Source: Pseudoclavibacter helvolus (GTDB lineage: Bacteria > Actinomycetota > Actinomycetes > Actinomycetales > Microbacteriaceae). From it: 64,000 bases of DNA. Every line of letters begins with the position of its first letter. Position 1 is the stretch's first letter. The notes under the pieces were generated by a model. That model did no database searches and had not been told where the DNA came from. It saw nothing but the letters and a program-made list of their open reading frames with translations. Position numbers and translations under genes: made by a program. Shown in pieces: positions 7,186 to 54,126 of this stretch. The stretch is taken from positions 434,001 to 498,000 of the forward strand of contig NZ_JACHWJ010000001.1 of the NCBI RefSeq assembly GCF_014191305.1, read 5' to 3'.

Positions 7186-10116
7186 TCAGTCCGCGTGTGT
7201 GCCTGACAGGTACTCGTAGAGGCTGGCAGCTACAGGGGTTTCGAGTTCTAGGTGCATCGTGACCACCGGAATTTCGTTGCCGTCACTGTCAACCATTTGC
7301 GAGTCGTTGGCGTCTGCTGCGGTTGCACGCCCCAGATAGTAAAAATCACCACCGTCAGTGTCATCTCGCTTGACGAAAACCTCCGGCCGCACCTGGTTAG
7401 TTGCTATAGCATTCTCTTCACGTCGGTCGAGAGTGCGATTGCTGCGGGTGTACCAAAGCATTGTTGCTTGATCAACAAACTGGTCCCCATAGGCCGTGCT
7501 GGCGGAGATCTCTCCGGATTTGTGGTAGGTCACAAAGATGGGGCAGACTCCCTGGGTGTAGTTTGCTCGGTACCCATACAGCGTTGACGAGGCATTTTTC
7601 GTCCAGCCGAAGAGTCGGCATGCGTCTTTGCGTGTGTACTGCTTGCCGGGCACCATCGGAGTACCCTTCGCGTAACGGGCGAGGTTCACGGTGATCCCGG
7701 CCTGGAGCAGGTCATCTACGTCCAGGCGGAAAGATTCGTCCGCTGTGTACAGTTCACGAAATGCGGGATTGAGGTCCACAATTCTGCTGGCGTCCACGAC
7801 CAAGATCGCCTGCTTGTATTTCTCTCGATCCGGTTCCGTGTGAAAGCTCAGATCTAGGTTCCGGATGACACTTTCGATGTCTTCTGCCGTGGTCGGCACG
7901 ATCTCCGCGATGCGCCGGGTGAGCTGCTCGCGCGACGCGGCTCCTTGTCGCAGCAACGAATCTATGACTAGAACATCGTGGGGTCGCCGGCTTGAGAAGG
8001 CCTCGATCGAGGCGTACGTCAAGAAGTCAATGCCCGCCTGGCTCATCGGGCTTGGCTGTCGGAGCATCTTGCTCACGAAGTTTTCATAGTTCTGGTAGCT
8101 CGCGATGATCTCGTAGGGATCCGTGGACTCGAAGCGCAGGAAATCAGTGAGTCGAGGTGGGTGGCCGAGGCGAGCTTTGAGGTCTTCGAACGCGCGTCGA
8201 ATGAGTCGGGCCCCGTTGAGCTTTGTTTCCGAGATAGATCGGAGTACCCGCTCCAGTGCGATGCGATCGAAGCTCACACTGGAGAGACCAGGAAGCGTAT
8301 CGGCTTCGGTTGCTCTCGAAAGATTGAGTCTCAGCGACTCTTTATTTAGGCTCTCATCTCCGAGGAGTGCAATCGGGATCATGAAGTTGTTCTGGTAGTT
8401 CCCGATGAAGTCCAGGACGACGACGTATTCCTTGCCGGGCGCCTTACGCAAGCCGCGACCCAGCTGTTGAATGAACACGATGTTGGACTGGGTTTGACGG
8501 AGCATCACGACCTGGTTGATCGTGGGGATGTCGATACCCTCGTTAAAAATGTCTACGCTGAGTAGGTAATTGAGCTCACCGCGTTCGAGAGCTGCGACAG
8601 CAAGTTCGCGCGTTGCCACCGAATCCTCTCCCGTAAGCGCGCGCGTGCGCAAGAGCTCTCCGTGCACATTGCGGGAGTTCAGTCGGTCGGATAGTTCGTG
8701 CGCCTCGGCCTTACTGCTGCAGAAGATCAGGCCACGCGGTGGTTCGGCCTTCTGGCCGTAGGTTTCGATAGTTTTCACGATGTGCTCGACCCGGAGCGAA
8801 GACACGAGGTTCTTGACGTCGGTCTGATCGCTGACGATCGTGCCGTCTTCGAGCGTGACGTCAGCAATTCCGTAGTAGTGGAACGGGGTCAAGATGTCAG
8901 CATCCAACGCTTGCTTGAGGCGAATTTCGTAGGGTACGTTGTAGTCGAAGTGCTTGAAAATGTCATAGCCGTCAGTTCGTTCGGGAGTGGCTGACATTCC
9001 CAGGAGGAACTTGGGGCGGAATTGTTCAAGAACTCGCTCAAACGACCGAGCCCCGCTGCGATGCGCTTCGTCCAGGATGATGTAGTCGAAAGCCTCAGGA
9101 GTAAACCACCTGAGCATGTCGGGTCGCGACAGTGTTTGAACAGTGGCGAAAAGGTACTTCGTTGAGCGGTCTTTGCTTGTCCCGGAGAGCTTGCCGAACT
9201 CGTGACCTGGTTCACCGAGAACGCGCTGGAACTCAGTCATCGCCTTGTCGATGATCTGCTCGCGGTGTGCCACGAAGAGCATCGTCTCTGGTTCTACGGC
9301 GCGCACGTCAAGGGCCGCAAGAATGGTCTTCCCAGTGCCCGTTGCGGAGACAATGAGCCCCTTGGTCTGCCCGCTCAGCCGCAAGTCCCGCAGCGCCTCA
9401 AGGGCCTCGAGTTGCATCGAGTTGGGAGCGACCGTGGCGGCGGGCGTATCGCGGCCCGTGTCGGTAGGGGTGTTTCGCCGATCGGCAGCTGCGAGCTTTC
9501 GGGCCAAAACCTCGAAGGACTTTTGTCTCTGATAGCCGACCGTGTACTCGTCAATCCAAGCCTGCGTGAGGGGCTCCGACAGTTGAACCTCTTCTGTAAC
9601 CAGGGTGTCGAGCTGCTCAGCAAGATTGCTGCCGCGATTGGCGGAAACCTGCAGGTTCCACTCGTGGTTCGAGACCAGAGCCTTCTCGGTCAGGTTGGAG
9701 CTACCGAAGATGGACGTGACATGGTCGTCGCGTTGAAAAATGTACCCCTTGGGATGAAATGCCGATGAGCCGTGAATGCGTGTTTCTACGCCGAGATCTC
9801 TTAGTCCCAGCAGCTCCTGAAATGCGTCCGGAGCGTTGAAGCTAAGATAGTCGGAAGTGACAATGAGACCTCGCCCACGAAAGTCCACGAAGGCTTGCTT
9901 CAACATGGCTATTGCTCGCGCCGTTACAAAGGCGACGCTGAACGTGAAATCGTCGCTCTCAGAGAGGTGATGCTTGAGGACTCTCAGCATCGTGTTTTCG
10001 TGTGCGTTCCAGACAATGCGCGGCGAGCGGACTCGCGGAGAAGTCAGATGCTTGTCGAGATATCCGAAGCGGAGATCAAGTTCGAAAGGTCCGGGCGGGT
10101 CGACGTAATCAACCAC
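7186..10116 (-). CDS. PLD-nuclease/SF2 helicase/DUF3427 fusion protein
   Basis: Large 976-residue protein predicted to act on nucleic acid. An N-terminal phospholipase-D-like nuclease domain carries the HxK motif FHPKGYIF (His121, Lys123) followed by FGSSNLTEKAL. A superfamily-2 helicase core follows: Walker A SATGTGKT (about 257-264), DEAH box ILDEAH (347-352), SATPER (375-380) and motif VI QQLGRGLRKAPGK. The rest matches the DUF3427-type C-terminal region, with YTRKDACRLFGWTKNASSTLYG and GVCPIFVTYHKS. The GTG start overlaps the upstream NUDIX gene by eight bases. Codon choice and AT content are unlike the flanking two-component genes, suggesting transfer. Helicase-nuclease fusions like this occur in defence and restriction-like settings; that role is inferred. 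Confidence 0.88.
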   Translation of the reverse strand: MVDYVDPPGPFELDLRFGYLDKHLTSPRVRSPRIVWNAHENTMLRVLKHHLSESDDFTFSVAFVTARAIAMLKQAFVDFRGRGLIVTSDYLSFNAPDAFQELLGLRDLGVETRIHGSSAFHPKGYIFQRDDHVTSIFGSSNLTEKALVSNHEWNLQVSANRGSNLAEQLDTLVTEEVQLSEPLTQAWIDEYTVGYQRQKSFEVLARKLAAADRRNTPTDTGRDTPAATVAPNSMQLEALEALRDLRLSGQTKGLIVSATGTGKTILAALDVRAVEPETMLFVAHREQIIDKAMTEFQRVLGEPGHEFGKLSGTSKDRSTKYLFATVQTLSRPDMLRWFTPEAFDYIILDEAHRSGARSFERVLEQFRPKFLLGMSATPERTDGYDIFKHFDYNVPYEIRLKQALDADILTPFHYYGIADVTLEDGTIVSDQTDVKNLVSSLRVEHIVKTIETYGQKAEPPRGLIFCSSKAEAHELSDRLNSRNVHGELLRTRALTGEDSVATRELAVAALERGELNYLLSVDIFNEGIDIPTINQVVMLRQTQSNIVFIQQLGRGLRKAPGKEYVVVLDFIGNYQNNFMIPIALLGDESLNKESLRLNLSRATEADTLPGLSSVSFDRIALERVLRSISETKLNGARLIRRAFEDLKARLGHPPRLTDFLRFESTDPYEIIASYQNYENFVSKMLRQPSPMSQAGIDFLTYASIEAFSSRRPHDVLVIDSLLRQGAASREQLTRRIAEIVPTTAEDIESVIRNLDLSFHTEPDREKYKQAILVVDASRIVDLNPAFRELYTADESFRLDVDDLLQAGITVNLARYAKGTPMVPGKQYTRKDACRLFGWTKNASSTLYGYRANYTQGVCPIFVTYHKSGEISASTAYGDQFVDQATMLWYTRSNRTLDRREENAIATNQVRPEVFVKRDDTDGGDFYYLGRATAADANDSQMVDSDGNEIPVVTMHLELETPVAASLYEYLSGTHAD

Positions 10117-41531: not shown

Positions 41532-42206
41532 TCAGTCGTTCACCACATACTCGCTGAAGACGGCGTCGAGCAGGGACGTGACGCGCTCAGCGTTCTCGGG
41601 CGGTGCGAGGCCAGGCAGGATGATCCGCCAGTGCAGGGCAACGCGATCAACGATGTCCTGACGCTTGCTGACCGCGCCCGAGAGCAGCTGTGTGCCCGTG
41701 AACGTCGACACGAGCAGCGAACTGAGGTCGGCCGCCCTGAACTCTCGGCGCAGGTTTCCCTCACGCTGGCAGATCTCGATCAGCGGCTTGAGCCGGGCAA
41801 GCCAGTCGAGGTACGGGCCGTAGGCGAGGAAGTTCGAACCGATCTCCGTCGTCACCAGCACTCCCGCGAGGACAACAACGTCCGTGCGGAGGAGCTCAGC
41901 GAAGGCGACCGAGACCTTGAGGAGTGCCTCCATGCCGCTGGTCGCCGTGCCCGTTGCATCCGTCACGGTCTGCGTGGCGCGAGCTGCGTACTCAGCCAGG
42001 ACGGCCTCGGCAACCGCATCTCGCGTCGCGAAGTGGTGGTAGAAAGCGCCGTTCGTCACACCGGAGTTCGCGCGGATCCGCGCAAGCGTCGATCCCGCGA
42101 AGCCGTATTCCACAAACGTCATGGCGGCCGCCTGAACCAAGCGGCTCCTGGTTTCGACGCTGCGCTGCTGTTGCGGCGCGCCGGCAGGACGGGGGAGGGC
42201 ACTCAT
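41532..42206 (-). CDS. TetR-family regulator, gamma-butyrolactone receptor-like
   Basis: 224-residue TetR repressor. The N-terminal HTH is TRSRLVQAAAMTFVEYGFAGSTLARIRANSGVTNGAFYHHFATRDAVAEAVLAEY, spread over residues 19-72, including the recognition helix GVTNGAFYHHF. The ligand domain has FAELLRTDVVVLAGVLVTTEIGSNF and ALHWRIILPGL with the Trp typical of ArpA/ScbR-type receptors. It is 67 bases downstream of, and on the same strand as, an AfsA-like synthase, the classical partner. That context makes a butyrolactone receptor the leading reading. Confidence 0.8.
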   Translation of the reverse strand: MSALPRPAGAPQQQRSVETRSRLVQAAAMTFVEYGFAGSTLARIRANSGVTNGAFYHHFATRDAVAEAVLAEYAARATQTVTDATGTATSGMEALLKVSVAFAELLRTDVVVLAGVLVTTEIGSNFLAYGPYLDWLARLKPLIEICQREGNLRREFRAADLSSLLVSTFTGTQLLSGAVSKRQDIVDRVALHWRIILPGLAPPENAERVTSLLDAVFSEYVVND

Positions 42207-42273
42207 AGCCAGTGAGTGTAGTGACGATCGGGTCGGCTACCTGCGCAGTCGTGCGGCGAGTGGTCGCCCAAAC

Positions 42274-43110
42274 TCACGAAGCACACTTGACTTCGGCCAC
42301 GCTCTCCTCGGCCTGAGCGGCCGCCGTCGCGACGTGCTTCCCGAAGCGTCTGGCGCTGATGGAGACCACTTCGCCGATCTCCGCGAAGCGAGGGCACACA
42401 AGCGACACGTTGTGAGGAGGCTCCCCAGTGAGGTGCTCATGCGCTTCAATGCCAGCTTGTGCGAAGAGCATGCCGGGAATGTGGTCGACGTCGTGGTCGA
42501 AGATGAGGCGGTTCGCCGAAGGCCAGCCGAGGTGCGCCTGGAGGTCAGTGCCGTCCACGGACACTTCGTCGAGCGCGTCGTCGGTTGTGGGATCAGCTTG
42601 ACGCGGCACCCGAAGGTTTCGACGCCGGAGGGCCTCATACGTGCGCCGAGGTACGCACCGGAACGATCCGGAGCCGGTCGCCACCTCTTCGCCTTCGAGC
42701 TCGAACACGGCATGGGCGGTCATCTCGTCGCAGCGGCCTGCGTGCACTCGGGCATTGCTGATGTGGACGGCAGCGGTCATCTCCGAGGCCCGAGTGGCGA
42801 TCGCGCGTGCGAAGGGCTCCGAACCCTGGAAGCTCAGCTTGTTGAGAAGAAAAGCCCAATCCAGCGGAATGCCCCCTGCCCGGTGGCCCATGAGGAGGCC
42901 CAGCTGGCGCGTGACCTCGAGGCCGAGCAGAGTCGGCGACGTTACGGCGTGCAGCCTGCCTCTCCCGCCGACTCCCTCAGCGGCTGTCTGAATCGGCTCG
43001 ACCACGGCACGAAGCCTCGCGCGGTAGTTGTCTGGTCGCACCTCCTCGACAGTCGCGACGAGCATCGTCTCCTCGCTGTCCTTGTGCACAAGTTCCCGAC
43101 TTACACGCAT
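42274..43110 (-). CDS. AfsA-like gamma-butyrolactone biosynthesis protein
   Basis: 278-residue protein with two AfsA hotdog-type repeats. AfsA of Streptomyces condenses a beta-ketoacyl-ACP with dihydroxyacetone phosphate in the first step to A-factor-type butyrolactones. Repeat 1 contains SRELVHKDSEETMLVATVE (the VHK..E signature) and SPTLLGLEVTRQLGLLMGHRAGG. Repeat 2 contains LIFDHDVDHIPGMLFAQAGIEA with the FDH.xDH/PGML motif. The start has AAGGAG upstream. AfsA homologues are common in Streptomyces but rarer in small actinobacteria. The upstream intergenic DNA carries a palindrome like a receptor binding site. Confidence 0.85.
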   Translation of the reverse strand: MRVSRELVHKDSEETMLVATVEEVRPDNYRARLRAVVEPIQTAAEGVGGRGRLHAVTSPTLLGLEVTRQLGLLMGHRAGGIPLDWAFLLNKLSFQGSEPFARAIATRASEMTAAVHISNARVHAGRCDEMTAHAVFELEGEEVATGSGSFRCVPRRTYEALRRRNLRVPRQADPTTDDALDEVSVDGTDLQAHLGWPSANRLIFDHDVDHIPGMLFAQAGIEAHEHLTGEPPHNVSLVCPRFAEIGEVVSISARRFGKHVATAAAQAEESVAEVKCAS

Positions 43111-43233
43111 CTCTGCTCCTTCGGATTCGCTCTTCGGGCACGAACGCGGCTCTCATCGGGGAAGCCGCTCCCCGGCTTGACGCGTCAACGTGCGTCTCGC
43201 TGGATGTGAAGAGGGCTTCGTCATCGAATGCCC

Positions 43234-43255
43234 ACAAACAGAGCGTCCTGTATGT
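43234..43255. promoter_or_regulatory. ARE-like butyrolactone-receptor operator
   Basis: A 22-bp imperfect palindrome with left half ACAAACAGAGC and right half GTCCTGTATGT, matching 8 of 11 positions when the right half is reverse-complemented. Its ACAwAC...GTwTGT-like ends are those of autoregulatory elements (ARE) bound by ArpA/ScbR-type TetR proteins. It lies in the divergent region between the afsA-like gene (start 43110) and the cyclase-like gene (start 43312), where it could control both. Prediction by eye only. Confidence 0.55.
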
Positions 43256-43311
43256 TACCTTGCCCGAAGGGGGCATCTAAACATCAGTGGTCAAGAAGTG
43301 ACGGGGGAGTC

Positions 43312-43908
43312 ATGGGAGTGCTCGTTCATCCGGACCAACAAGTGCACCCCGCGGTGCAGCGGGCGCTTGATGACGGACGGTTGCGTGCCGTCTCGAACCA
43401 TCGCTCGGGCCATCCCTGGCTCCTCGCGCGTCATTGGGAGCGCACCCTCACGGAGGTCCGCACCAAGCACCTCGATATCGTCATCCTTAGTCACCTTGAC
43501 GGCGAGACGGCAACCGCGGTGGTGCTGCTGGCGCAGGGGCGGCGGACACTCGAGGAGCTGGATGACCTGCAAATGCTGCTCCCGGAATCGACGATCGTGA
43601 TCGCGAAGGACGAAGCGGGGGAGACCCGCGTCGAGGGGGCACTCGCGGGGCAGAAGCGAGCCGTGTGGGTGGAAGAGGGCTCAGTGGCGTTCGTGAGCGA
43701 CGACCGTGGGCTCCTCATGGATATCTTCGCGCTCGGTGGCGAACGTCAGGGGCGCGACCCACAGGGTGACGATCGGCAGGAGAGAGTCGGTTGGATGCCG
43801 CTCTGGACTGTCCCGACGGGGATGTGGCTGCATACGAATACCGGCGCCATCCCTCGCGTTCGCGCCGTCGCCGCGGCGGGGACTGCGCGCGCAAGTCGGC
43901 CGAGCTGA
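43312..43908 (+). pseudogene. Lasso peptide cyclase-like N-terminal fragment
   Basis: 198-residue protein whose features match the N-terminal glutaminase-like domain of asparagine synthase-related lasso cyclases: MGVLVHPDQQVHPAVQRAL, SGHPWLLARHWE, LEELDDLQMLLPESTIVIAKDEAGETRVEGALAGQKRAVWV, FVSDDRGLLMDIFAL, and PLWTVPTGMWLHT. The ATG has GGGGGAG upstream, and expression could be controlled by the ARE-like palindrome. The ATP-pyrophosphatase half with its SGGxDS loop is missing: a stop follows, and nothing resembling it lies in the next 100 bases. It may be a truncated remnant or a stand-alone regulator-like domain. The family call is by motif memory, hence moderate confidence. Confidence 0.5.
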
Positions 43909-44005
43909 CCCAGCACGCCGGATGGCCCGCGCGGGCGACGGCACCACCGGCGGCGCCGGACGCTGTGCGCGCCGGACGGTGCGTGCGCCGCTGGAGTTTC
44001 CTGCG

Positions 44006-44914
44006 TCAGGCCTGCAGTGTGGCGGCGTACCAGTCGAGGTCAGCCTGGGTCAGCCGGACGCCCTCCTTCGCGCGCACGCCCGTGCGGCTGCTGAGCAGCT
44101 CGCCGCTGTAGCTGTGGTCGACGTAGGCGCGCTGCAGGAGCTGAGCGGGGACCTGCGCCAGGAGTGGGTGATCGATGGGGGTGTCACGGTCGGAGAGCGT
44201 GATTCCGAGCTGGTCGGCGACGAGCGTCAGGATCTCTCGAAATGTAGCCGGGGCGGGGTCTGCTGCGTGGAAGACGGATTCCTCGATCGTGTCGAACCCG
44301 ATCGCGAGGGCCGCGCCCTGTGCTGCCAGCGTGGAGACGTGAATCGTCGACAGCCGTGCGCCGCCGCCGCCCACCCAGCCGCTAACTGCCTGCACCCCAG
44401 CAAGCGCTGTCGGTAGGAACCAGCGATCCCCAGGGCCGTAGGTCAGTGCTGCCCTGACCACTTTGCCCCCTGCTTCCAAGACGTGGGACTCGCCTTCGTT
44501 CCGCGAGGCGCTTGCTACGGACATCGGATGTGCGGAGAGCTCGCCCTCCCGGGCGAGCCGGTGTGGGCCAGGGCCGTAGACAGCGGTTGTGCTCACGTAG
44601 ACGATTCGTGTTGCCGTGCGCCGGCACTCGCCAACGAGAGCTGCCGTTCCGAGGTCGTTCACGGCAGTGGCGACGCTCGCGTCCGCGCCGACGTAGCTCG
44701 CGGCGTGGACAACAACGTCCACTCCGGTGGTGAGTCCCTCGAAGCTCGACGGGTCCGTCAGATCGGCGCGGAAGATCTCGGTCTTGCTGTCCGGCGCGGC
44801 GGAACCTGGGCTCCTGACCAGGAGTCGGACCCCCGACACATCTGGCATCGATTGCAGCTGCTCCTGCACGGCCGCGCCGACGAACCCTGTTGCTCCAGTA
44901 AGAAGTACCTTCAT
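44006..44914 (-). CDS. NAD-dependent epimerase/reductase (extended SDR)
   Basis: 302-residue extended short-chain dehydrogenase. The NAD(P) fold is KVLLTGATGFVGAAVQEQL at residues 2-20, then VVVHAASYVGAD, the Ser/Thr region RIVYVSTTAVYG with Tyr (active site YxxxK is degraded: SVASASRNEGE replaces it). The latter part shows VRAALTYGPGDRWFLPTAL and FHAADPAPATFREILTLVADQLG. Reductases of this kind act on the ketone of butyrolactone precursors in some Streptomyces loci (for example jadW2). Its place near afsA suggests this role, yet the missing YxxxK-type Tyr/Lys argues for caution. Confidence 0.8.
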   Translation of the reverse strand: MKVLLTGATGFVGAAVQEQLQSMPDVSGVRLLVRSPGSAAPDSKTEIFRADLTDPSSFEGLTTGVDVVVHAASYVGADASVATAVNDLGTAALVGECRRTATRIVYVSTTAVYGPGPHRLAREGELSAHPMSVASASRNEGESHVLEAGGKVVRAALTYGPGDRWFLPTALAGVQAVSGWVGGGGARLSTIHVSTLAAQGAALAIGFDTIEESVFHAADPAPATFREILTLVADQLGITLSDRDTPIDHPLLAQVPAQLLQRAYVDHSYSGELLSSRTGVRAKEGVRLTQADLDWYAATLQA

Positions 44915-45009
44915 GCCGCCCCCAGCTCTGTACCGTTCCGATCAGCGTATCTGCAGGAAACCGCGAGTGCCGGCGCCCGACGACGGTCGGGCACTGACAT
45001 CCTTGATCC

Positions 45010-46188
45010 ATGAAGCTCTCGCACCGCGCCCAGACAGTCGAGCCGTTCCACGCCATGGCCTTCGGGCAGCGTGCCGCCGAGCTCGAGGCGCACGGACACC
45101 GTGTTGTGAAGCTCTCACTGGGGGAGCCGGACTTCGGTGCGCCCCCGGCCGTACGCGAGGCGATGCGCGACGCCATGGACGGTCGGCCACTCCCGTACAC
45201 GGTGGCGTTCGGCCTGCCAGCGCTTCGTGAGGCGATCAGTGGGTTCTATCGCTTCCGCCACGGGGTCGACGTCGATCCGGCGCGCATCGTCGTGACTTCG
45301 GGCGCGTCCGCTGCCTTACTGCTCGTGGTGGCAGCGACAACCGACACGGGCGACGACGTCATCATGGCCGACCCGTCGTACCCCTGCAATCGTCAGCTCG
45401 TGCAGAGCTTCGGCGGTCGCGTGGTCAGCGTGCCGACAACCGTCGAATCGCGCTACCAGATCGATGCGCGCAGCGTCGAGCAGGCCTGGACCGAGAGCAC
45501 GTCGGCGCTCATGGTCGCGACGCCCTCGAACCCGACGGGCACTTCGGTCCCGTTCGACGAACTGACCGCGATCTGCGAGTTCGCCCGCGAGCGAGGAGCC
45601 TGGCGCATTATCGACGAGATCTACTTGAACCTGTCCGACCCAGGTTCGGACGGCAGTCCGCCGCGGAGCATCCTGAGTGTAGATCCGGACGCCATCGTCA
45701 TCAACAGCTTCTCGAAGTACTTCGGCATGACCGGGTGGCGACTCGGCTGGGCGGTGCTGCCAGAGGTGCTTGTTCCGGCCGCTGAGAAGCTCGCGACGAA
45801 CTACTTCCTCTCGGCCTCCGCGCCGGCGCAGATCGCGGCACTGTCAGCGTTCACGCCAGAGTCGCTGGCGGTCTGCGAGGAACGCCGACTCGAACTGGCC
45901 GCTCGGCGGGCGGTCGTGCTGGACGGACTCGAAGCCATCGGACTGCCCGTTCCCGTGCTGCCTGACGGTGCCTTCTACGTGTACTTCGACGTGGCAGGCA
46001 CAGGGCTCACGGCGTGGGAATTCTGCCGCCGCGCCCTCGAGGAGGAGCTCGTCGCCCTCACCCCCGGGCGAGACTTCGGGTCCAACACTGGTGAGACGCA
46101 CGTGCGGCTCTCTTACGCTGCATCCCGGAGCGAGCTCGTGGAGGGGCTGAGCAGGCTCGGCAAGTTCGTGCGGGAGCTGCGCGACTGA
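45010..46188 (+). CDS. Class I/II PLP aminotransferase
   Basis: 392-residue fold-type I aminotransferase. Core motifs: VVKLSLGEPDFGAPPAVREAM, LPYTVAFGLPALREAISGFY, VVTSGASAALLLVVAATT, VATPSNPTGTSVPFDEL with the substrate Asn/Pro, WRIIDEIYLNL, and the PLP Lys in NSFSKYFGMTGWRLGW. C-terminal Arg lies in THVRLSYAASRSEL. It would convert an amino acid to its keto acid. It starts 95 bases from the divergent SDR gene and 105 bases before the ABC pair. Specificity cannot be assigned, though alanine/valine or aspartate types are similar. Confidence 0.88.
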   Translation: MKLSHRAQTVEPFHAMAFGQRAAELEAHGHRVVKLSLGEPDFGAPPAVREAMRDAMDGRPLPYTVAFGLPALREAISGFYRFRHGVDVDPARIVVTSGASAALLLVVAATTDTGDDVIMADPSYPCNRQLVQSFGGRVVSVPTTVESRYQIDARSVEQAWTESTSALMVATPSNPTGTSVPFDELTAICEFARERGAWRIIDEIYLNLSDPGSDGSPPRSILSVDPDAIVINSFSKYFGMTGWRLGWAVLPEVLVPAAEKLATNYFLSASAPAQIAALSAFTPESLAVCEERRLELAARRAVVLDGLEAIGLPVPVLPDGAFYVYFDVAGTGLTAWEFCRRALEEELVALTPGRDFGSNTGETHVRLSYAASRSELVEGLSRLGKFVRELRD

Positions 46189-46293
46189 GGTCACCTGGCT
46201 GCTCACGATCCGCCGAGGCAGAGGCTGCGGGCCATTGGGTGGTGCTGGTCGGCGAGACTTGCTCGTCTCCACGTGGGCGGGGAGGATAGCTGC

Positions 46294-46953
46294 ATGGTAG
46301 CAGTCCTCGTCGAAGACGCGTCCTTCAATCGTGGCGGCGTGCTGGTGCTCGCAGGGGTGACGTTCAACGTGGCGGAGGGGTCGGCCCTGTGCCTCACGGG
46401 GGCGAATGGCTCGGGCAAGACAACCGTGTTGCGCGCGCTGTCTGGCGTTGTGCAGCCAAGTGCGGGGCGAATCCTCGTTGCTGGTGAGCCAGTGGATGAG
46501 CGAAGTCCAGCCTTCCGGCGCAGGCTCGCCGCGTTGGTCGGTTCGGTTCCCTTTTCCCTCACCCTGACCGCCAGGGAGCATCTGATCGCGGTCTCCTCTT
46601 CCTGGGGCTCCAGCGTTACCGACGCGAAGGCCACAGCCGACCGTGTGCTGAGTCGGCTCGGTCTCGATCAGCTCGCTGAGCGCTTCCCGCACGAGCTCTC
46701 CTCCGGGCAGTTCCAGTTGCTCTCCCTGGCTACGGTGCTGGCGCGCCCGTTCGAAGTGCTGGTGCTCGACGAACCAGAGCAGCGCCTTGACGCTAATCGG
46801 CGCGAGTTGCTCGCGCGCATTCTCTCTGAGGAACGTGAGCGCGGAGCGGTCGTTGTCATCGCGACTCACAGCCAGTCGCTCCTCGATCAGCTGCAGGCGT
46901 CGGAGTTCGACCTCGGTCGGCAAGATGGTGAGGGGCGTCAACGTGCGGCGTGA
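46294..46953 (+). CDS. ABC transporter ATP-binding protein
   Basis: 219-residue ABC ATPase. Walker A is CLTGANGSGKTTVLRALSG (about residues 36-54), the ABC signature is HELSSGQFQLLSLATVLARP, Walker B is FEVLVLDEPEQRLDA and the switch His is VIATHSQSLL. The ATG at 46294 has GGGGAGG upstream; the frame open before it was not used. It overlaps the DUF6297 gene, indicating a transporter made of this ATPase and that membrane protein. Such pairs occur in actinobacterial ribosomally made peptide clusters and may export or confer immunity. Confidence 0.9.
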   Translation: MVAVLVEDASFNRGGVLVLAGVTFNVAEGSALCLTGANGSGKTTVLRALSGVVQPSAGRILVAGEPVDERSPAFRRRLAALVGSVPFSLTLTAREHLIAVSSSWGSSVTDAKATADRVLSRLGLDQLAERFPHELSSGQFQLLSLATVLARPFEVLVLDEPEQRLDANRRELLARILSEERERGAVVVIATHSQSLLDQLQASEFDLGRQDGEGRQRAA

Positions 46954-48409
46954 CGGCGCCTACCGTGTGTACTTGGTTGTAGCTGTCGGCCTGGTTGCGG
47001 TGGCGCCGCTGGTGCGGATGCTGTTCCTCGCCCTCTTGGAGCCTTCGTCGCTTGTTTGGCTCTCCTCAGGGGACTTCGCGGGGCAAGTGCACCTGCTTGC
47101 GGCGGCGGTGGTGCCTGTCGGCCTGATCGTCGGTACGGTCCGCGGGTCGGCACTCCTGTCGCCATTCGCCACCGTGACGCTCGCTTCCAACCACCTACCA
47201 AGGCGTGTGACGCTCCGCCGTGCCTTCCAGCGGACCCTTCTGGTGGTCTCTGTTGCGGCCGTCGGGCTGGCTGTCCTCCTCGGAAGTGCACTTGTTGTGG
47301 GGGCCGCCGGTTCACCGCTTGCCGCACTGAACTTGGTGGCCGCTGCCGCCACGCTGGCCTGCCTCGGTGTCGTGGCGGCCCTTGTGGGCGAGCTGCTGGG
47401 CAGCGCGCGGGCGTGGGGAGCGGCGGCCCTGTTCGGCGCCTTCGGACTGTCCCCGATCGGTATCGGGGCGTGGCTGTCCTCGACTTGGGCAGACTTGTCG
47501 GCTGGGGCCGCCGCAAGCGGGTCGGTGCCCGCGGGCACCGGCGGTGCAGGACTCGGCGGCGTGCTCTGTCTCGCTGCAGCTGCCGTTCTTGCGCTGGCGT
47601 GTGTTCCCGCGCTTCTTGACCGCCTGCGAGGTGATGTCTTGCTCATGCAAGCCAGGCGCCGCGAGGCTGCCCAGATGGCAGTGGCCACTGGCGAGCTGTC
47701 GGATGCGGCAGCGCCGTACCGCGAGCCACCGACGATCGGTCGGCGGCTGCCGGCGGTTGTCGGCGGGCCCCGCGCCGTTGCCATGCTGGTGCGTGACGCG
47801 GTGGGCGCACTCCGAACGCCGCAGCGAACGGTGCTCGGTGTCGCCGGATTGGCGTGCGCCCTGCTGCTGCTCGGAGTGACGCAGGGCCCGGGTGGCGTCG
47901 GCACGTTCGCCGCGGTGGCAGCCGCCCTCGGTTCGGTTGCGGTCTACCTTTCGCTCGGCGCTTTTAGTGACGGGTTCAGGCAGGCCGCCGAGGCGGCGGC
48001 CGGCCCCGCGGTCTTTGGAACCCCAGTGGGGGAGCAGTTCTTACTTCATGCCGTGTTCCCCGTGCTCCTGGTCGTTCTTACGGTCGGGGTCACGGCGATG
48101 CCCTCCGGCGGCAGCCTTGCCCCTCTCCTTGGCGGTCTCGCCATGGTCGCGGTGCGCGCGTACGAGGCCGCGCGCGGTTCGCTGCCCCCGCTGCTGCTGA
48201 CGCCCATGCCGAGTGAGATCGGCGACCTTTCGGCGTTGGCGCGCCTTGTCTGGCAGTTTGACTCGGTGCTCATCGCGGCGGGGCTCGGCGCGGCGACCAT
48301 GCTGTCCTGGTCTGCCGGGCTTCACGTCCTCTCATTTGCGGTACTCGGAGCGGGAGCCTCGGTGCTTGCTCTCGCGACACGCGTGCGGCTTCGTCAGAGT
48401 CGCGGGTAG
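46943..48409 (+). CDS. DUF6297-like membrane protein (ABC partner)
   Basis: 488-residue integral membrane protein with about twelve hydrophobic helices, including YRVYLVVAVGLVAVAPLVRM, VSVAAVGLAVLLGSALVVGAAG, and VLGVAGLACALLLLGVTQG. A cytoplasmic loop around residues 230-290 has RLRGDVLLMQARRREAAQMAVATGELSDA, typical of DUF6297 proteins. The GTG at 46943 follows GAGGGG; an ATG at 46925 is the alternative start. It overlaps the ATPase stop by eleven bases. Probably the permease of a two-component ABC exporter. It ends in a convergent 16-base overlap with the RibD-like pseudogene. Confidence 0.78.
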   Translation: MRRDGAYRVYLVVAVGLVAVAPLVRMLFLALLEPSSLVWLSSGDFAGQVHLLAAAVVPVGLIVGTVRGSALLSPFATVTLASNHLPRRVTLRRAFQRTLLVVSVAAVGLAVLLGSALVVGAAGSPLAALNLVAAAATLACLGVVAALVGELLGSARAWGAAALFGAFGLSPIGIGAWLSSTWADLSAGAAASGSVPAGTGGAGLGGVLCLAAAAVLALACVPALLDRLRGDVLLMQARRREAAQMAVATGELSDAAAPYREPPTIGRRLPAVVGGPRAVAMLVRDAVGALRTPQRTVLGVAGLACALLLLGVTQGPGGVGTFAAVAAALGSVAVYLSLGAFSDGFRQAAEAAAGPAVFGTPVGEQFLLHAVFPVLLVVLTVGVTAMPSGGSLAPLLGGLAMVAVRAYEAARGSLPPLLLTPMPSEIGDLSALARLVWQFDSVLIAAGLGAATMLSWSAGLHVLSFAVLGAGASVLALATRVRLRQSRG

Positions 48410-48957
48410 CGAACCTCGTAGTGTGCTTCCACGAACTGGCCATGGGCCTGAGCTGAGGTCAGGTGGAGAGCCTCCGATTCGATGCGTCTGGGAAGAACGG
48501 GGGCCCCAGATTCGAGGGTGACCGGCGCGATCGACAGGCGCAGTTCGTTGAGTCGACCTGCATCGTAGAACTGCCCGGCCAGGTCTCCACCGCCAACAAC
48601 CCAGACGCTGCCCTCGCCAGCGGCGGCCGCAATGTCGTCGAAGTGGTCGTCGACTGCACTGCGAACCACCCGGATGTTGAGGCCATCAGGAACGGGAAGG
48701 TCTCTCGTGGAGAACACGAACGTGGGGCGGTCGGCGTAGGACGCACGCCACTTGTCCGGATGCTCGTCGAGCCCCTCGTGGGCGTAGACCCACTCGTAGG
48801 TTGTGGAACCCATCACCAGGGCGCCGATGCCGTCGAGGAACGCGCCGAAGGCGTTGTCTTCCGGCTGGTCGACTACGAAGAGTCAGTCGAGCGAGTTGTT
48901 GTCGTCCGCGATGAAGCCGGAGAGGGTGGTGGCGGTGTTGTAGATCACGTGAGTCAT
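48394..48957 (-). pseudogene. RibD C-terminal/dihydrofolate reductase-like gene with nonsense codon
   Basis: The complete frame from ATG 48957 reads MTHVIYNTATTLSGFIADDNNSLD and then an in-frame TGA (48893-48895), followed without frame change by LFVVDQPEDNAFGAFLDGIGALVMGSTTYEWVY. In this family the position is Trp (LDWLF), so TGG has become TGA. The remainder, including SVWVVGGGDLAGQFYDAG with the family's VxGGG motif and RLSIAPVTLESGAP, is intact to 48394. The gene is a likely null, though re-initiation near 48816 could make a short product. Confidence 0.88.
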
Positions 48958-50152: not shown

Positions 50153-50716
50153 CTATCGAATGACGCCGTAGCGGAGATGCACGACGCCGGACTCGAACGT
50201 GCGGGAGTCGAGCAGCTGGAGCTTCGTGCGTCGGTTGTTACGCGAGAAGAACGGGGTGCCGCCGCCGACGAGCACGGGGCAGACGCGGAGTAAGTACTCG
50301 TCGATCAAGTCCAGATCGGCCACTTGATGAGCGAGCTCGGCGCCGCCGATCGCGATTGTGCCATCGCCAGGTTCGGCCTTCAGTTGCGCGATCTCGTCGG
50401 CGAGGCTGGCTCCCGCGAGTCGGGTATTGCCCACGACCTCCGAGATTGAGTTCGAGAAGACGACCTTCGGGAGGGCACGCCAGAGCTCGGCGAACCCGAG
50501 CTCGAGTTCGCCCCAGTCCTGCTCCTCGGCACCCGGCTCCCAGTAGACCATCGTCTCGTAGAGGCGCCGGCCCATGAGATGCACGTCGGCGCCGCGGACC
50601 TCATCGGTCGCCAGACGGAAGACTTCCTCGCTTGGGTCACCCCAGTCGAAGTGGCCGTCCTCATCCTTGATGTAGCCGTCCAGCGTGAGGGCGAGGGAGT
50701 AGGTGACCTTGCGCAT
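50153..50716 (-). CDS. Dihydrofolate reductase-family (RibD C-terminal) protein
   Basis: 187-residue NADPH-dependent reductase-like protein. Motifs: KVTYSLALTLDGYIKDEDGHFDW, ADVHLMGRRLYETMVYW, PKVVFSNSISEV, and GDGTIAIGGAELAHQVADLDLIDEYLLRVCPVLVGGGTPFF, the last with the G-G-x-x-L signature. The ATG has AAGGAGG upstream. It is intact, unlike the similar gene at 48.4-49.0 kb. Members of this group are not true DHFRs; some reduce pyrimidine or pterin compounds. It ends 20 bases from the LLM gene stop. Confidence 0.88.
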   Translation of the reverse strand: MRKVTYSLALTLDGYIKDEDGHFDWGDPSEEVFRLATDEVRGADVHLMGRRLYETMVYWEPGAEEQDWGELELGFAELWRALPKVVFSNSISEVVGNTRLAGASLADEIAQLKAEPGDGTIAIGGAELAHQVADLDLIDEYLLRVCPVLVGGGTPFFSRNNRRTKLQLLDSRTFESGVVHLRYGVIR

Positions 50717-51274: not shown

Positions 51275-52697
51275 GGCTCATCGCGTTTGAGAGTGTAGAT
51301 AGGGCCTGAATCCTCCGGTCTCGAGGAGTGATCTTGCGATGTAGTGGGTCAGGTTCCGGAAGCCGAGCGCGATACCGCGGAGGTGCTCGAGGCGCCCGTT
51401 AATGGCCTCGGTCGGGCCGTTGCTGCTCCCGGGATGATCGAAGAACGCGAGGATGTCGGCGGCCCGGCGCTTGAACGTGGTGCCGAGCGTTGCCAGCTCC
51501 GGGACCGTCTTCGCGGTAGCCTCGGCGAGCGCATTGATCACGGCGCGCAGCGCGGTCTTCCCGAGCTGCTTCCGGGGTTCTCGATAGGCAGTGATCACGC
51601 GTTGATAGATCGTCCAGACAGCCTCGACCTCGGCATGCTCGGGGTTCGCGAACACGCTCTCGAGACGCCCGATCTGACGCTCAGTGAGGAGCGTCGTCCC
51701 GGTGCGCAACGCTCGCCTGACGCCGTAGAGCGGGTCGCTCGTGCGGCCGCGGTGTCCGGTCGTTGCTTGCTGGACTCGCTGCCGGCAGGTATCGAGGGCG
51801 TCACCGGCCAGCTTCACGACATGGAACGGATCGAGGACCTCGACCGCGTCTGGGAGCTGTTCGACCGCGGCGGACTTGAAGCCCGTGAACCCGTCCATCG
51901 CGACGATCTCGACACCGGTGCGCCATGCGTCGGGGCGGGCTTCGAGCCAGTCCCGGAACACGGCCTTCGATCTGCCCTCGACCATGTCCAGAAGGCGGGA
52001 TGGGCCTGTCTTGGCGCGGATCGGGGTGAGGTCGATGATCACGGTCACGTACTTGTCTCCGTGTCGCGTGTGTCTCCAGACATGCTCATCGACCCCGATC
52101 GTGGTGACGTGCTCGAAACGGCGCTCATCGTCGATGAGCAAGCGATGCCCTTCGGCCAGGACGGCGCGGTTCGCGGCGTCCCAAGACACATCAAGCGCTT
52201 CAGCGACTCGCGCGACCGAGAGATGCTGACACACGAGCGAGACCAGACTCCATCGCAGCGCGGCTCGGGAGAGCTTCGCGCGAGGTGCGGCCGCGGCGGT
52301 CGTGTCTTGCCGCCAAACGTGCTTGCAGTGCTCGCACCGGTAGCGGCGCACCTGGAGCAGGAGCACAGTAGGTCGCCATCCGGAAGGTTCGTGCGCGAGC
52401 CTGCGCGTCACCGAGTCTCTCAGCCTCCCCTGGCTGCCGCAGCGGTGACACCAGTCATCGGCCTCAACGACCCGGCACATGAGGACCGTTCGCTCGTGCG
52501 TCACGAGCTGCCCGGTCACCTCCAGCCCGAGGTCGTCAAGACGGCAGAAGGTCGTGAGGTTCGGCGACTGGAGGGTAGCGTTACGCATGTCGAGGTCTCT
52601 CGGATGGGTGTGTAGGAACTTCCATCCTGGGAGACCCCGACCTCTACCAGCGCAAAGACGCGCTACCCCACTCCTACACTCTCAAACGCGATGAGCC
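51275..52697 (-). mobile_element. ISL3-family insertion sequence, copy 1 (intact)
   Basis: 1,423 bp bounded by perfect 24-bp inverted repeats beginning GGCTCATCGCGTTTGAG: left at 51275-51298, right at 52674-52697. It holds one intact transposase. The left flank GGGTTGTC and right flank GGGTTGGC (52698-52705) match at 7 of 8 positions, as expected for an 8-bp ISL3 target duplication. The right copy includes the first three bases of IS copy 2, which implies that copy 1 inserted into the left junction of copy 2. Confidence 0.9.
51278..52588 (-). CDS. ISL3-family transposase (intact)
   Basis: 436-residue ISL3 (DDE) transposase. N-terminal zinc-ribbon/HTH: VVEADDWCHRCGSQGRLRDS with CxxC, then VRRYRCEHCKHVWRQD with a second CxxC. 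The HTH-like segment includes LVCQHLSVARVAEALDVSWDAAN. The catalytic domain shows VTTIGVDEHVWRHTRHGDKYVTVIIDL with the first Asp, VEIVAMDGFTGFKSA, EVLDPFHVVKLAGDALDTCR, and the C-terminal Glu region SSNGPTEAINGRLEHLRGIALGFRN. The stop codon lies inside the left terminal repeat. All domains appear complete. Confidence 0.95.
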   Translation of the reverse strand: MRNATLQSPNLTTFCRLDDLGLEVTGQLVTHERTVLMCRVVEADDWCHRCGSQGRLRDSVTRRLAHEPSGWRPTVLLLQVRRYRCEHCKHVWRQDTTAAAAPRAKLSRAALRWSLVSLVCQHLSVARVAEALDVSWDAANRAVLAEGHRLLIDDERRFEHVTTIGVDEHVWRHTRHGDKYVTVIIDLTPIRAKTGPSRLLDMVEGRSKAVFRDWLEARPDAWRTGVEIVAMDGFTGFKSAAVEQLPDAVEVLDPFHVVKLAGDALDTCRQRVQQATTGHRGRTSDPLYGVRRALRTGTTLLTERQIGRLESVFANPEHAEVEAVWTIYQRVITAYREPRKQLGKTALRAVINALAEATAKTVPELATLGTTFKRRAADILAFFDHPGSSNGPTEAINGRLEHLRGIALGFRNLTHYIARSLLETGGFRPYLHSQTR

Positions 52698-52702
52698 GGG
52701 TT

Positions 52703-54126
52703 GGCTCATCGCAATCGAGGGTGTAGGTGGGATCTGAATCCTCCGGCTTCGAGTAGCGATCTGGCAACATAGTTCGTCAGGTTTCGGAAGCCGAGCGCTG
52801 AGCCTCTGAGGTGTTCGAGGCGACCGTTGATCGCCTCCGTGGGGCCGTTGCTGGTGCCGGGGCGGTCGAAGTAAGCGAGCACGTCAGCGGCGCGCTGTTT
52901 CAACGTTCGGCCGAGGCGGCGGATCTCGATCAGCGCGGTGGGAACACCGCTGGTGACGGCGTCGATGACGGCCTGCATCATCTGCTTGCCCTTGGTCTTG
53001 TCCGGTTCACGGTAGGCGGCAACGATGCGCTGGTAGATTCCCCAGGTCGCTTCAACCTCAACATGATCATCACCGGTGAATAGTGCTTGAAGGCGTGCGC
53101 GTTGCTTGTCGGTGAGGAGGCTGTCGCCGGTGTGCAGGGTGCGGCGGGCCTTGTAGAGCGGGTCGCCCGAACGGCCTCGATGCCCGAGCGTGGCCTGCTG
53201 AACGCGTTGCCGGCACCGATCCAGCCCGTCGCCGGCGAGGCGGACGACGTGGAACGGATCCATCACGGGGACCGCGTCGGGCAGCTCTTCGGCGGCGGCG
53301 GTCTTGAAGCCGCTGAACCCGTCCATCGCGACGACCTCGATCCGATCTCGCCACTGTTTCGGCCGCTGCGCGAGCCACTGCTTGAACACTGCCTTCGAGC
53401 GTCCCTCGACCATGTCCAGCAGTCGCGCGGGGCCGGTCTTGTCCCGCACGGGGGTGAGGTCGATGATGACCGTGACGTATTTGTCGCCCTTGCGCGTGTG
53501 ACGCCAGACATGCTCGTCGACACCGATGGTGCTCACGCCGTCGAAACGGTGAGGGTCATCGATTAGACGTCGCTTGCCTTCGGCGAGGATCGCGCTGTTC
53601 GCGGTATGCCAGGACACCCCAAGCCCGGCGGCGGCACGAGAGACGGTGAGATGGTCGACCACGAGAGCTTCCAACGCCCACCGCACCCCGCTTCGGGAGA
53701 TCTTCGTCCGCGGCGACGATGCCTTCGACATGTCCTGCCGCCAGGTGCGCTTGCAATGATCACACCGGTATCGACGAACCCGAACCTGCAGCGTCGTGGG
53801 CCGGTGACCGAACGGCTCATGCGCAAGACAACGAATCACCGTATCCCGAATGACGCCCTCGGCGCCGCACCCCCCGACACCACGGATCAGCCTCAACGGC
53901 CCGGCACTCGATCACCGCCCGATCCGGCTCCAGGCGCTGCCCGACAGCTTGCAGGCCGAGCTCGTCAAGGCGACAGAAGGTAGTCAGATCGGGCGCGGCA
54001 AAGGTAGCGTGGAACACGTCGAGGTCTTTCCGGTGGACAGCGTAGGAACTTCCATCCTGGAAGACCTCGACCCCTATCCACCAATCGCCGCGCGCATCCT
54101 GACTACACCCTCATCTGCGAAGAGCC
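52703..54126 (-). mobile_element. ISL3-family insertion sequence, copy 2 (diverged)
   Basis: 1,424 bp with imperfect inverted repeats: left GGCTCATCGCAATCGAGG from 52703, right the complement of GGCTCTTCGCAGATGAGG ending at 54126, both continuing into GGTGTAG. It is related to but distinct from copy 1, five bases away, and lies in the same orientation. No target duplication is seen: right flank ACTAATTA does not match the left flank. Its transposase is frameshifted. Confidence 0.88.
52706..54017 (-). pseudogene. ISL3-family transposase with one-base frameshift
   Basis: The N-terminus is in one frame (MFHATFAAPDLTTFCRLDELG, then AVEADPWCRG) and the rest in another (CGAEGVIRDTVIRCLAHEPFG through FRSHLHPRLR). 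The junction is a run of six G on the coding strand (C at 53870-53875); five would give the continuous CRGCGAEG, matching CHRCGSQG in copy 1. The catalytic domain with VSTIGVDEHVWRHTRKGDKY and TSNGPTEAINGRLEHLRG is otherwise whole. The element is therefore probably immobile unless copy 1 acts on its ends. Confidence 0.88.

Follow-up and report, generated by a model that had tools for sequence, protein, structure and literature searches.

A putative butyrolactone-type autoregulator locus with a stand-alone lasso-cyclase N-domain gene in Pseudoclavibacter

Results

A four-gene locus combines autoregulator genes with an orphan lasso-cyclase N-domain

In a 64,000-nucleotide stretch of DNA from the soil bacterium Pseudoclavibacter helvolus (the window; G000:C1:434001-498000, from a genome of 3.84 Mb in 12 contigs) we analyzed four adjacent genes, separated by at most 201 bp, which encode a TetR-type receptor (GblR), an AfsA-type synthase (GblA), a stand-alone protein of 198 amino acids called LCN here, and a GblE-type epimerase of the short-chain dehydrogenase/reductase (SDR) type (Table 1). 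Judged from the genus-level relatives of the locus, the genome is of Pseudoclavibacter type. Most of what is known about butyrolactone-type signalling comes from Streptomyces. The best reading of the locus, to which we give somewhat better than even chances, is an autoregulator circuit with LCN, an orphan N-terminal domain of a lasso-peptide cyclase, as its nearest output. Gene content, homology, conservation, selection and a conserved palindrome in the AfsA/LCN spacer are directly established.

Relatives were collected by protein search in 10 Pseudoclavibacter genomes and in a family sample of 299 Microbacteriaceae genomes from 85 genera. All relatives of the locus belong to Pseudoclavibacter (Microbacteriaceae), namely sp. 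AY1F1 (G005), P. terrae THG-MD12 (G008), sp. RFBB5 (G006) and sp. AY1H1 (G004), the last evidently outside the family sample. For comparison of AfsA proteins, 17 other loci of the family were used (L012, L013 and L066-L080), one further family match (G268:C19) being left out.

To characterize LCN, a hidden Markov model (HMM) was built from the N-terminal, class II glutaminase-like domains of six lasso cyclases (L118-L122 and L124), excluding the truncated cyclase of the same genome (L123). The five LCN proteins scored between 26.8 and 49.1 bits with this model, the E-values of this comparison coming from very small sets. Among 4140 open reading frames (ORFs) of 24 loci, the LCN of the window ranked first (48.4 bits, E 2.1e-13), and at E<=1 the model listed, besides the five LCN proteins and the two known lasso cyclases (L065, L127), two ORFs with E-values of 0.38 and 0.96. 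Conversely, an LCN HMM matched all six cyclases, from 31.0 bits down to a marginal 4.8 bits, and missed L123 (-0.5 bits). Alignment of LCN with the cyclase N-domains by hhalign gave 97.2%, with 23% identity across 137 columns. When 72,556 plasmid records were searched with LCN by tblastn, the Streptomyces leeuwenhoekii lasso cyclase of chaxapeptin type came out on top (LCN residues 2-138, E 0.02); three more records matched at E 0.9. On this evidence, LCN and the N-terminal domain of lasso cyclases are homologous.

Pfam contained no family for any of the five LCN members at E<=10. NCBIfam had none either, a match of one member to a beta-lactamase model at E 0.11 being taken as chance. When the LCN profile was run against the PDB, the top of seven matches was a kinase chain (E 5e-4) composed of three weak stretches (best i-Evalue 2.6), which was rejected as a chance match; the remaining six had E-values of at least 0.25.

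The best choice of start codon for LCN is ATG 43312; three of the four relatives have the same codon there and the fourth has GTG. A G-rich stretch lies immediately 5' of this ATG. The orthologues comprise 198 (window), 251 (AY1F1), 179 (RFBB5), 179 (THG-MD12) and 206 (AY1H1) amino acids. All lack the C-terminal asparagine-synthase (ATP-pyrophosphatase) domain and end near the domain border, as placed by eye. Families of lasso precursors and of the B1/B2 proteins were not found among ten genes scanned between 38.7 and 48.4 kb, a scan in which very small ORFs were not systematically searched.

The signalling genes could be assigned by their profiles. The receptor exceeded the equivalog cut-off of NF041196 (ScbR; 157.4 versus 150 bits), and its orthologues scored 158.9, 157.8, 157.5 and 148.1 bits, the last value, from AY1H1, lying just below the cut-off. 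The Trp of its YLDWL segment, which we take to be a ligand-contacting residue, is present in all five orthologues. The synthase matched PF03756 above the cut-off of 24 bits, and its first repeat retains the ExxRQ motif in an alignment inspected by eye. The SDR gene is separated from the AfsA gene only by LCN, and a relative of it adjoins AfsA and TetR genes in 5 of the 17 other AfsA loci (L013, L066, L067, L069 and L070). NAD-epimerases of this kind, GblE and JadW2, are described in the available part of PMC5735094; the likeness of the SDR to them is one of family and position.

A preliminary description of this DNA had named an AfsA-like synthase, an adjacent receptor-type TetR gene, an SDR reductase/epimerase and the N-terminal half of a lasso cyclase without its ATP-pyrophosphatase half. 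The profiles uphold each of these labels, and with them a butyrolactone-type synthase/receptor pair with an associated SDR in Microbacteriaceae. The cyclase-like gene was recognized by the cyclase N-domain HMM and hhalign, with Pfam and NCBIfam silent, and the sole match to PF00733 found in the genome lies on another contig.

The locus is conserved in place and LCN is under purifying selection

AfsA relatives were detected in five of the ten genus genomes; four occupy the orthologous position (100, 84, 74 and 75% identity) and one is distant (G007, 32%). AY1F1, RFBB5 and THG-MD12 share the gene order of the window (4/10 genus genomes): ppc - AHSA1 - HEAT - TetR - AfsA - LCN - SDR - aminotransferase - ABC - membrane-type protein - two reductase-like genes flanking one further gene. 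An ADH gene following ppc gave a full match in the window and AY1F1 only. The preliminary description had let its cluster reading depend on the AfsA profile and on the neighbours in related strains; the profile matched, and the same order was found in four genomes.

LCN occurs in five of the ten genus genomes and in 4/299 family genomes, every one of them Pseudoclavibacter. AfsA is distributed patchily in the family (18/299 genomes, 10/85 genera). In the five other genus genomes, the search for the HEAT gene found nothing in four and a weak match in the fifth (G007, 33%). The comparison is therefore one within a single group of five.

In AY1H1, TetR and LCN genes are adjacent and lie between the HEAT and aminotransferase genes. 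AfsA was not found in this genome, nor the SDR in the 20-kb stretch of the locus. AY1H1 thus keeps receptor and LCN at a locus without AfsA, SDR and palindrome, which groups LCN with the receptor and not with signal synthesis. The tree of the five genomes is unrooted and gives no choice between a loss in AY1H1 and a gain in the others.

Selection was estimated from pairwise ratios of nonsynonymous to synonymous substitution rates (dN/dS) after Nei-Gojobori; several of the dS values come close to 1 or exceed it and are therefore rough. The ratios amounted to 0.209-0.441 for LCN (10 pairs; dS 0.26 to 1.38), 0.110-0.134 for AfsA (6 pairs), 0.205-0.378 for the SDR (6 pairs) and 0.076-0.154 for the aminotransferase (10 pairs). 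For TetR they were 0.075-0.139 in the six pairs without AY1H1 and 0.186-0.249 in the four pairs with it. Hence LCN is retained, under a constraint weaker than that of AfsA and about equal to that of the SDR. The receptor of AY1H1, a genome in which AfsA was not found, changes faster and retains the recognition-helix segment as well as the YLDWL tryptophan.

A conserved palindrome lies between the AfsA and LCN genes

The 201-bp AfsA/LCN spacer contains the palindrome ACAAACAGAGCGTCCTGTATGT, a candidate operator of the receptor that is kept in all four genomes with this AfsA. It is identical to the window at 22/22 positions in AY1F1 and at 18/22 in both RFBB5 and THG-MD12, whereas the spacer outside it is 48-55% identical between the two genome pairs. 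In AY1H1 the values were 10/22 and 11/22, with 55% and 37% for the remainder of the spacer, and the palindrome is thus not conserved there.

For the SfbR receptor, the available portion of PMC7480387 gives the consensus AAACVGNNBVNNCSGTTT of the autoregulatory element (ARE), from which the palindrome deviates by two mismatches at 14 informative positions; such matches are common by chance. The same pattern, with up to two mismatches, is enriched 5' of AfsA genes in the 17 other loci, with 8 sites in 8.5 kb compared to 17 in the other 264.6 kb (AfsA starts approximate). Since the SfbR match is weak alone, weight is placed on the conservation and on this family-wide signal. No second ARE match with at most two mismatches was present near the locus within the window.

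Genome-wide, a pattern built from the window site had one perfect match, none with one or two mismatches and seven with three. A wider regulon was considered and rejected: these eight sites per strand compare with 14 in a reversed control, so that no further targets can be named.

Proposed circuit and alternative explanations

The core of the locus may be described as a four-gene butyrolactone-type quorum module composed of GblR, AfsA/GblA, LCN and the GblE-type reductase/epimerase. AfsA and the SDR would produce a small lactone autoregulator. Without this signal, a receptor dimer would occupy the palindrome and hold down LCN and probably also the divergent afsA gene; upon binding of the signal, the receptor would leave the palindrome. 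This would make LCN the nearest output of the circuit; having no catalytic synthetase half, it would most likely act as a binding or regulatory pseudoenzyme. We regard as tentative, and rather doubtful, the further idea that the quorum circuit has a stand-alone lasso-cyclase N-domain as its dedicated output, a pseudoenzyme of class II glutaminase-like type that serves by itself as binding or regulatory effector, and that the AY1H1 lineage, with receptor and effector and without signal genes or palindrome, could listen but not speak.

Several observations weigh against the circuit with LCN as output. Two AlphaFold models of LCN were weak, with a mean predicted local distance difference test score (pLDDT) of 64.7 and 64.5, and a fold search with the first gave no significant match, the best (E 0.027) being an unrelated protein. 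The second model gave none either; two chains of carbapenam synthetase, a member of the asparagine-synthase family, stood at the top with E 0.28 and 0.54. Many N-terminal-nucleophile enzymes were in the same list, all with E-values of at least 0.28 and a hint at most. On the synthase side, AfsA reached 104.4 bits with NF041195 (ScbA/BarX), where the equivalog cut-off is 200, and its orthologues 108.9, 101.4 and 105.9 bits; it is therefore not classed as ScbA. Its second repeat lacks the ExxRQ motif that was seen there by eye in 8 of the 17 other AfsA proteins of the family.

The operator is likewise affected. By eye, the palindrome has three mismatches to the AvaR1 consensus as given in the available part of PMC5744401. 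With up to two mismatches, the SfbR pattern had four strand matches in the 64-kb window compared to a shuffle mean of 7.5 (89 of 100 shuffles reached four), and an SfbR-type match also turned up in 440 of 20000 spacer shuffles. ARE sites 5' of AfsA occurred in just 5 of the 17 other loci, and LCN is kept in AY1H1 without the palindrome, which is consequently not needed by LCN there. Finally, LCN changes faster than AfsA or TetR, at about the rate of the SDR.

This faster change would also suit an explanation in which LCN is a functionless, slowly decaying remnant of a complete cyclase that was once under quorum control, as would its variable length (179-251 amino acids) and its confinement to Pseudoclavibacter among the 299 family genomes. 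However, LCN is an open, roughly domain-length ORF in 5/5 genomes with a common N-terminus and many invariant residues, and its dN/dS of 0.21-0.44 was obtained over pairs with dS from 0.26 to 1.38, which makes the remnant unlikely. The preliminary description had seen here a truncated, perhaps dead pathway or else a new purpose of the N-domain. Open orthologues under purifying selection speak against the former, and the new purpose is the better-supported half of that alternative.

Just as improbable, in our view, is a role of LCN as an extra enzyme or chaperone of autoregulator synthesis. It would account for the position of the gene between the putative biosynthetic genes gblA and gblE, seen in four of the five genomes. 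Yet in AY1H1 LCN is present with neither biosynthetic gene at the locus, and the LCN profile found nothing better than an ORF at E 0.054 in the 17 other AfsA loci.

Flanking genes and other features of the window

Table 1. Coordinates of the genes and of the candidate operator in the window
Feature	Position	Strand	Evidence
GblR, ScbR-family autoregulator receptor (TetR), 224 aa	41532..42206	-	NF041196 157.4 bits
GblA, AfsA-type synthase, divergent subgroup, 278 aa	42274..43110	-	PF03756 56.6 bits, cut-off 24
Palindrome ACAAACAG-N6-CTGTATGT, candidate receptor operator	43234..43255		Conservation; overlaps possible -10 of LCN by eye
LCN, homologous to N-terminal (class II glutaminase-like) domain of lasso cyclases, 198 aa	43312..43908	+	Cyclase N-domain HMM, hhalign, dN/dS
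GblE-type NAD-dependent epimerase/dehydratase (SDR), 302 aa	44006..44914	-	PF01370 66.7 bits
Class I/II aminotransferase, conserved flank, probably outside locus	45010..46188	+	PF00155 205.3 bits
ABC ATPase (46273-46953) and second protein, overlapping ORF to 48409; conserved flank, probably outside locus	46273..48409	+	PF00005 94.7 bits (ATPase)

Beyond the SDR gene, at higher coordinates, follow an aminotransferase gene, the gene of an ATP-binding cassette (ABC) ATPase and a further gene, all three present in 5/5 genomes including AY1H1. Pfam agrees with the preliminary description on the aminotransferase and the ATPase, whereas its DUF6297 label for the protein ending at 48409 found no backing, no family of Pfam or NCBIfam matching at E<=1.

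The preliminary description had moreover united these genes with the signalling genes in a small autoregulator-controlled cluster. That the whole region from 41.5 to 48.4 kb forms one such biosynthetic cluster, with the aminotransferase and ABC genes as members, fits with the joint occurrence of its genes in four genomes, but we consider it quite improbable. The aminotransferase, the ABC gene, the next gene and the outer genes on both sides are in place in AY1H1, where AfsA and SDR are missing, so that proximity carries little information and the flanking genes look like chromosomal backbone; furthermore, no ARE match with at most two mismatches lies near the aminotransferase and ABC genes in the window. 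These genes are thus probably unrelated to the signalling locus, and of the proposed cluster the core of synthase, receptor, SDR and N-domain remains.

Further downstream, two related reductase-like proteins (by eye; 28-29% identical in cross-matches) are encoded at 48394-48816 and 50153-50716, with a luciferase-type monooxygenase-like gene between them, and all three genes occur in 5/5 genomes. Two similar ISL3-type transposase ORFs are arranged in tandem on the minus strand at 51278-53896, the first assigned by PF01610 and the second by resemblance. At 7186-10116, in the stretch of lowest G+C content of the window (0.57), a helicase of 976 amino acids is encoded. It combines PLD-like, ResIII and DUF3427 domains, and its gene may be of defence type and have been acquired horizontally.

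A lasso-type cluster with a truncated cyclase elsewhere in the genome

The one Asn_synthase-domain match (PF00733) of the genome is located on contig C2 in a lasso-type cluster (L065:9437-13353), in which, besides the cyclase, a precursor-like ORF and B-protein-like and ABC-transporter-like ORFs were recognized by eye. In this cluster and in its counterpart in AY1H1 (L127), the cyclase is without roughly the first 100-137 residues of the N-domain. It aligns to the chaxapeptin cyclase from residue 138 (blastp: from 157), whereas LCN aligns to about residues 4-137, as computed from coordinates. The approximately 190 bases from the precursor-like ORF to the start of the cyclase alignment are too few for the missing part.

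The two proteins thus cover complementary parts of the chaxapeptin cyclase, which is striking and raises the possibility that LCN supplies the N-domain of a split enzyme, working in trans with the truncated cyclase, and that the quorum module switches on lasso-peptide maturation. AY1H1, which also bears LCN, holds the same cluster with a truncated cyclase 91% identical to that of the window's genome, and the C-terminal part of this cyclase has a dN/dS of 0.146. On the other hand, the AY1H1 cyclase reads in two frames, and the cyclase N-domain HMM still matches the truncated cyclase with 36.7 bits, so that LCN overlaps the part of the N-domain left in it; the LCN profile, as mentioned, misses this cyclase. 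Above all, an Asn_synthase domain was not matched at E<=0.001 in AY1F1, RFBB5 and THG-MD12, which all carry LCN, nor in G002 and G003, where LCN was not found, and the first three genomes also lack a match to the truncated cyclase. LCN must therefore work without a cyclase in those three of the five LCN genomes, and as a plain half of a split cyclase it was rejected; the trans-acting arrangement as a whole appears very unlikely.

Discussion

To our knowledge, the role of the N-domain within lasso cyclases is poorly defined. As of 2024, according to the available part of PMC11420955, no lasso synthetase had been structurally characterised. The closest known enzymes are lasso cyclases such as the chaxapeptin cyclase and McjC. 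With chaxapeptin-type cyclases LCN shares a colinear N-terminal domain over the 137 aligned columns; it differs from them by the absence of the synthetase domain, and no precursor or B1/B2 family was found beside it.

GblA/GblR/GblE gene sets are known from Rhodococcus, and the accessible text of PMC5735094 also covers Rhodococcus butyrolactone chemistry. GblA/GblR/GblE of Rhodococcus jostii RHA1 and JadW1/JadR2/JadW2 of Streptomyces venezuelae, as presented there, unite an AfsA-type synthase, an ScbR-type receptor and an NAD-epimerase like the window locus. In contrast to these clusters, the window has LCN between synthase and epimerase as well as a divergent AfsA; judged by gene content, what is new relative to the known set is the added LCN. 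With ScbA/ScbR of S. coelicolor and SfbR of S. filipinensis, the window shares the receptor family, the NF041196 threshold being exceeded, and an ARE-like palindrome 5' of the synthase gene. It differs from these systems in the place of its site, between the synthase and LCN genes, in the two deviations of this site from the SfbR consensus and in the lack of a second ARE match nearby.

Related arrangements exist within the family. The second locus of AY1F1 (L013) likewise has adjacent genes for AfsA, an ScbR-type receptor (177.3 bits) and an SDR relative; unlike in the window, its AfsA passes the ScbA equivalog cut-off (209.3 bits) and LCN is missing. By eye, neighbouring ORFs resemble a ketoacyl synthase III, enoyl-CoA hydratases and an amidinotransferase. 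In another Microbacteriaceae genome (G198), AfsA, TetR and SDR genes of locus L070 have as neighbours the genes of an AurF-type N-oxygenase and of a protein matching GATase_7/Asn_synthase. An SfbR-type ARE without any mismatch is located at 8279; L070 is perhaps an autoregulator-linked biosynthetic locus.

The available part of PMC4748050 lists butyrolactone-type entries in a few other genera and names no butyrolactone system in its passages on Clavibacter, Leifsonia and Microbacterium. In titles and the beginnings of abstracts of the open-licence papers listed, which are weak evidence in this respect, we found no report of a butyrolactone circuit in Pseudoclavibacter or Microbacteriaceae, nor of a stand-alone lasso-cyclase N-domain.

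Altogether, this would be a compact circuit of four genes in a genome of small size, with a single conserved candidate operator and one gene next to it, and as such readily testable. AY1H1, which retains receptor and LCN in the absence of the signal genes, lends itself to a natural comparison. Should LCN be the output of this circuit, it would reveal what an isolated lasso-cyclase N-domain can do.

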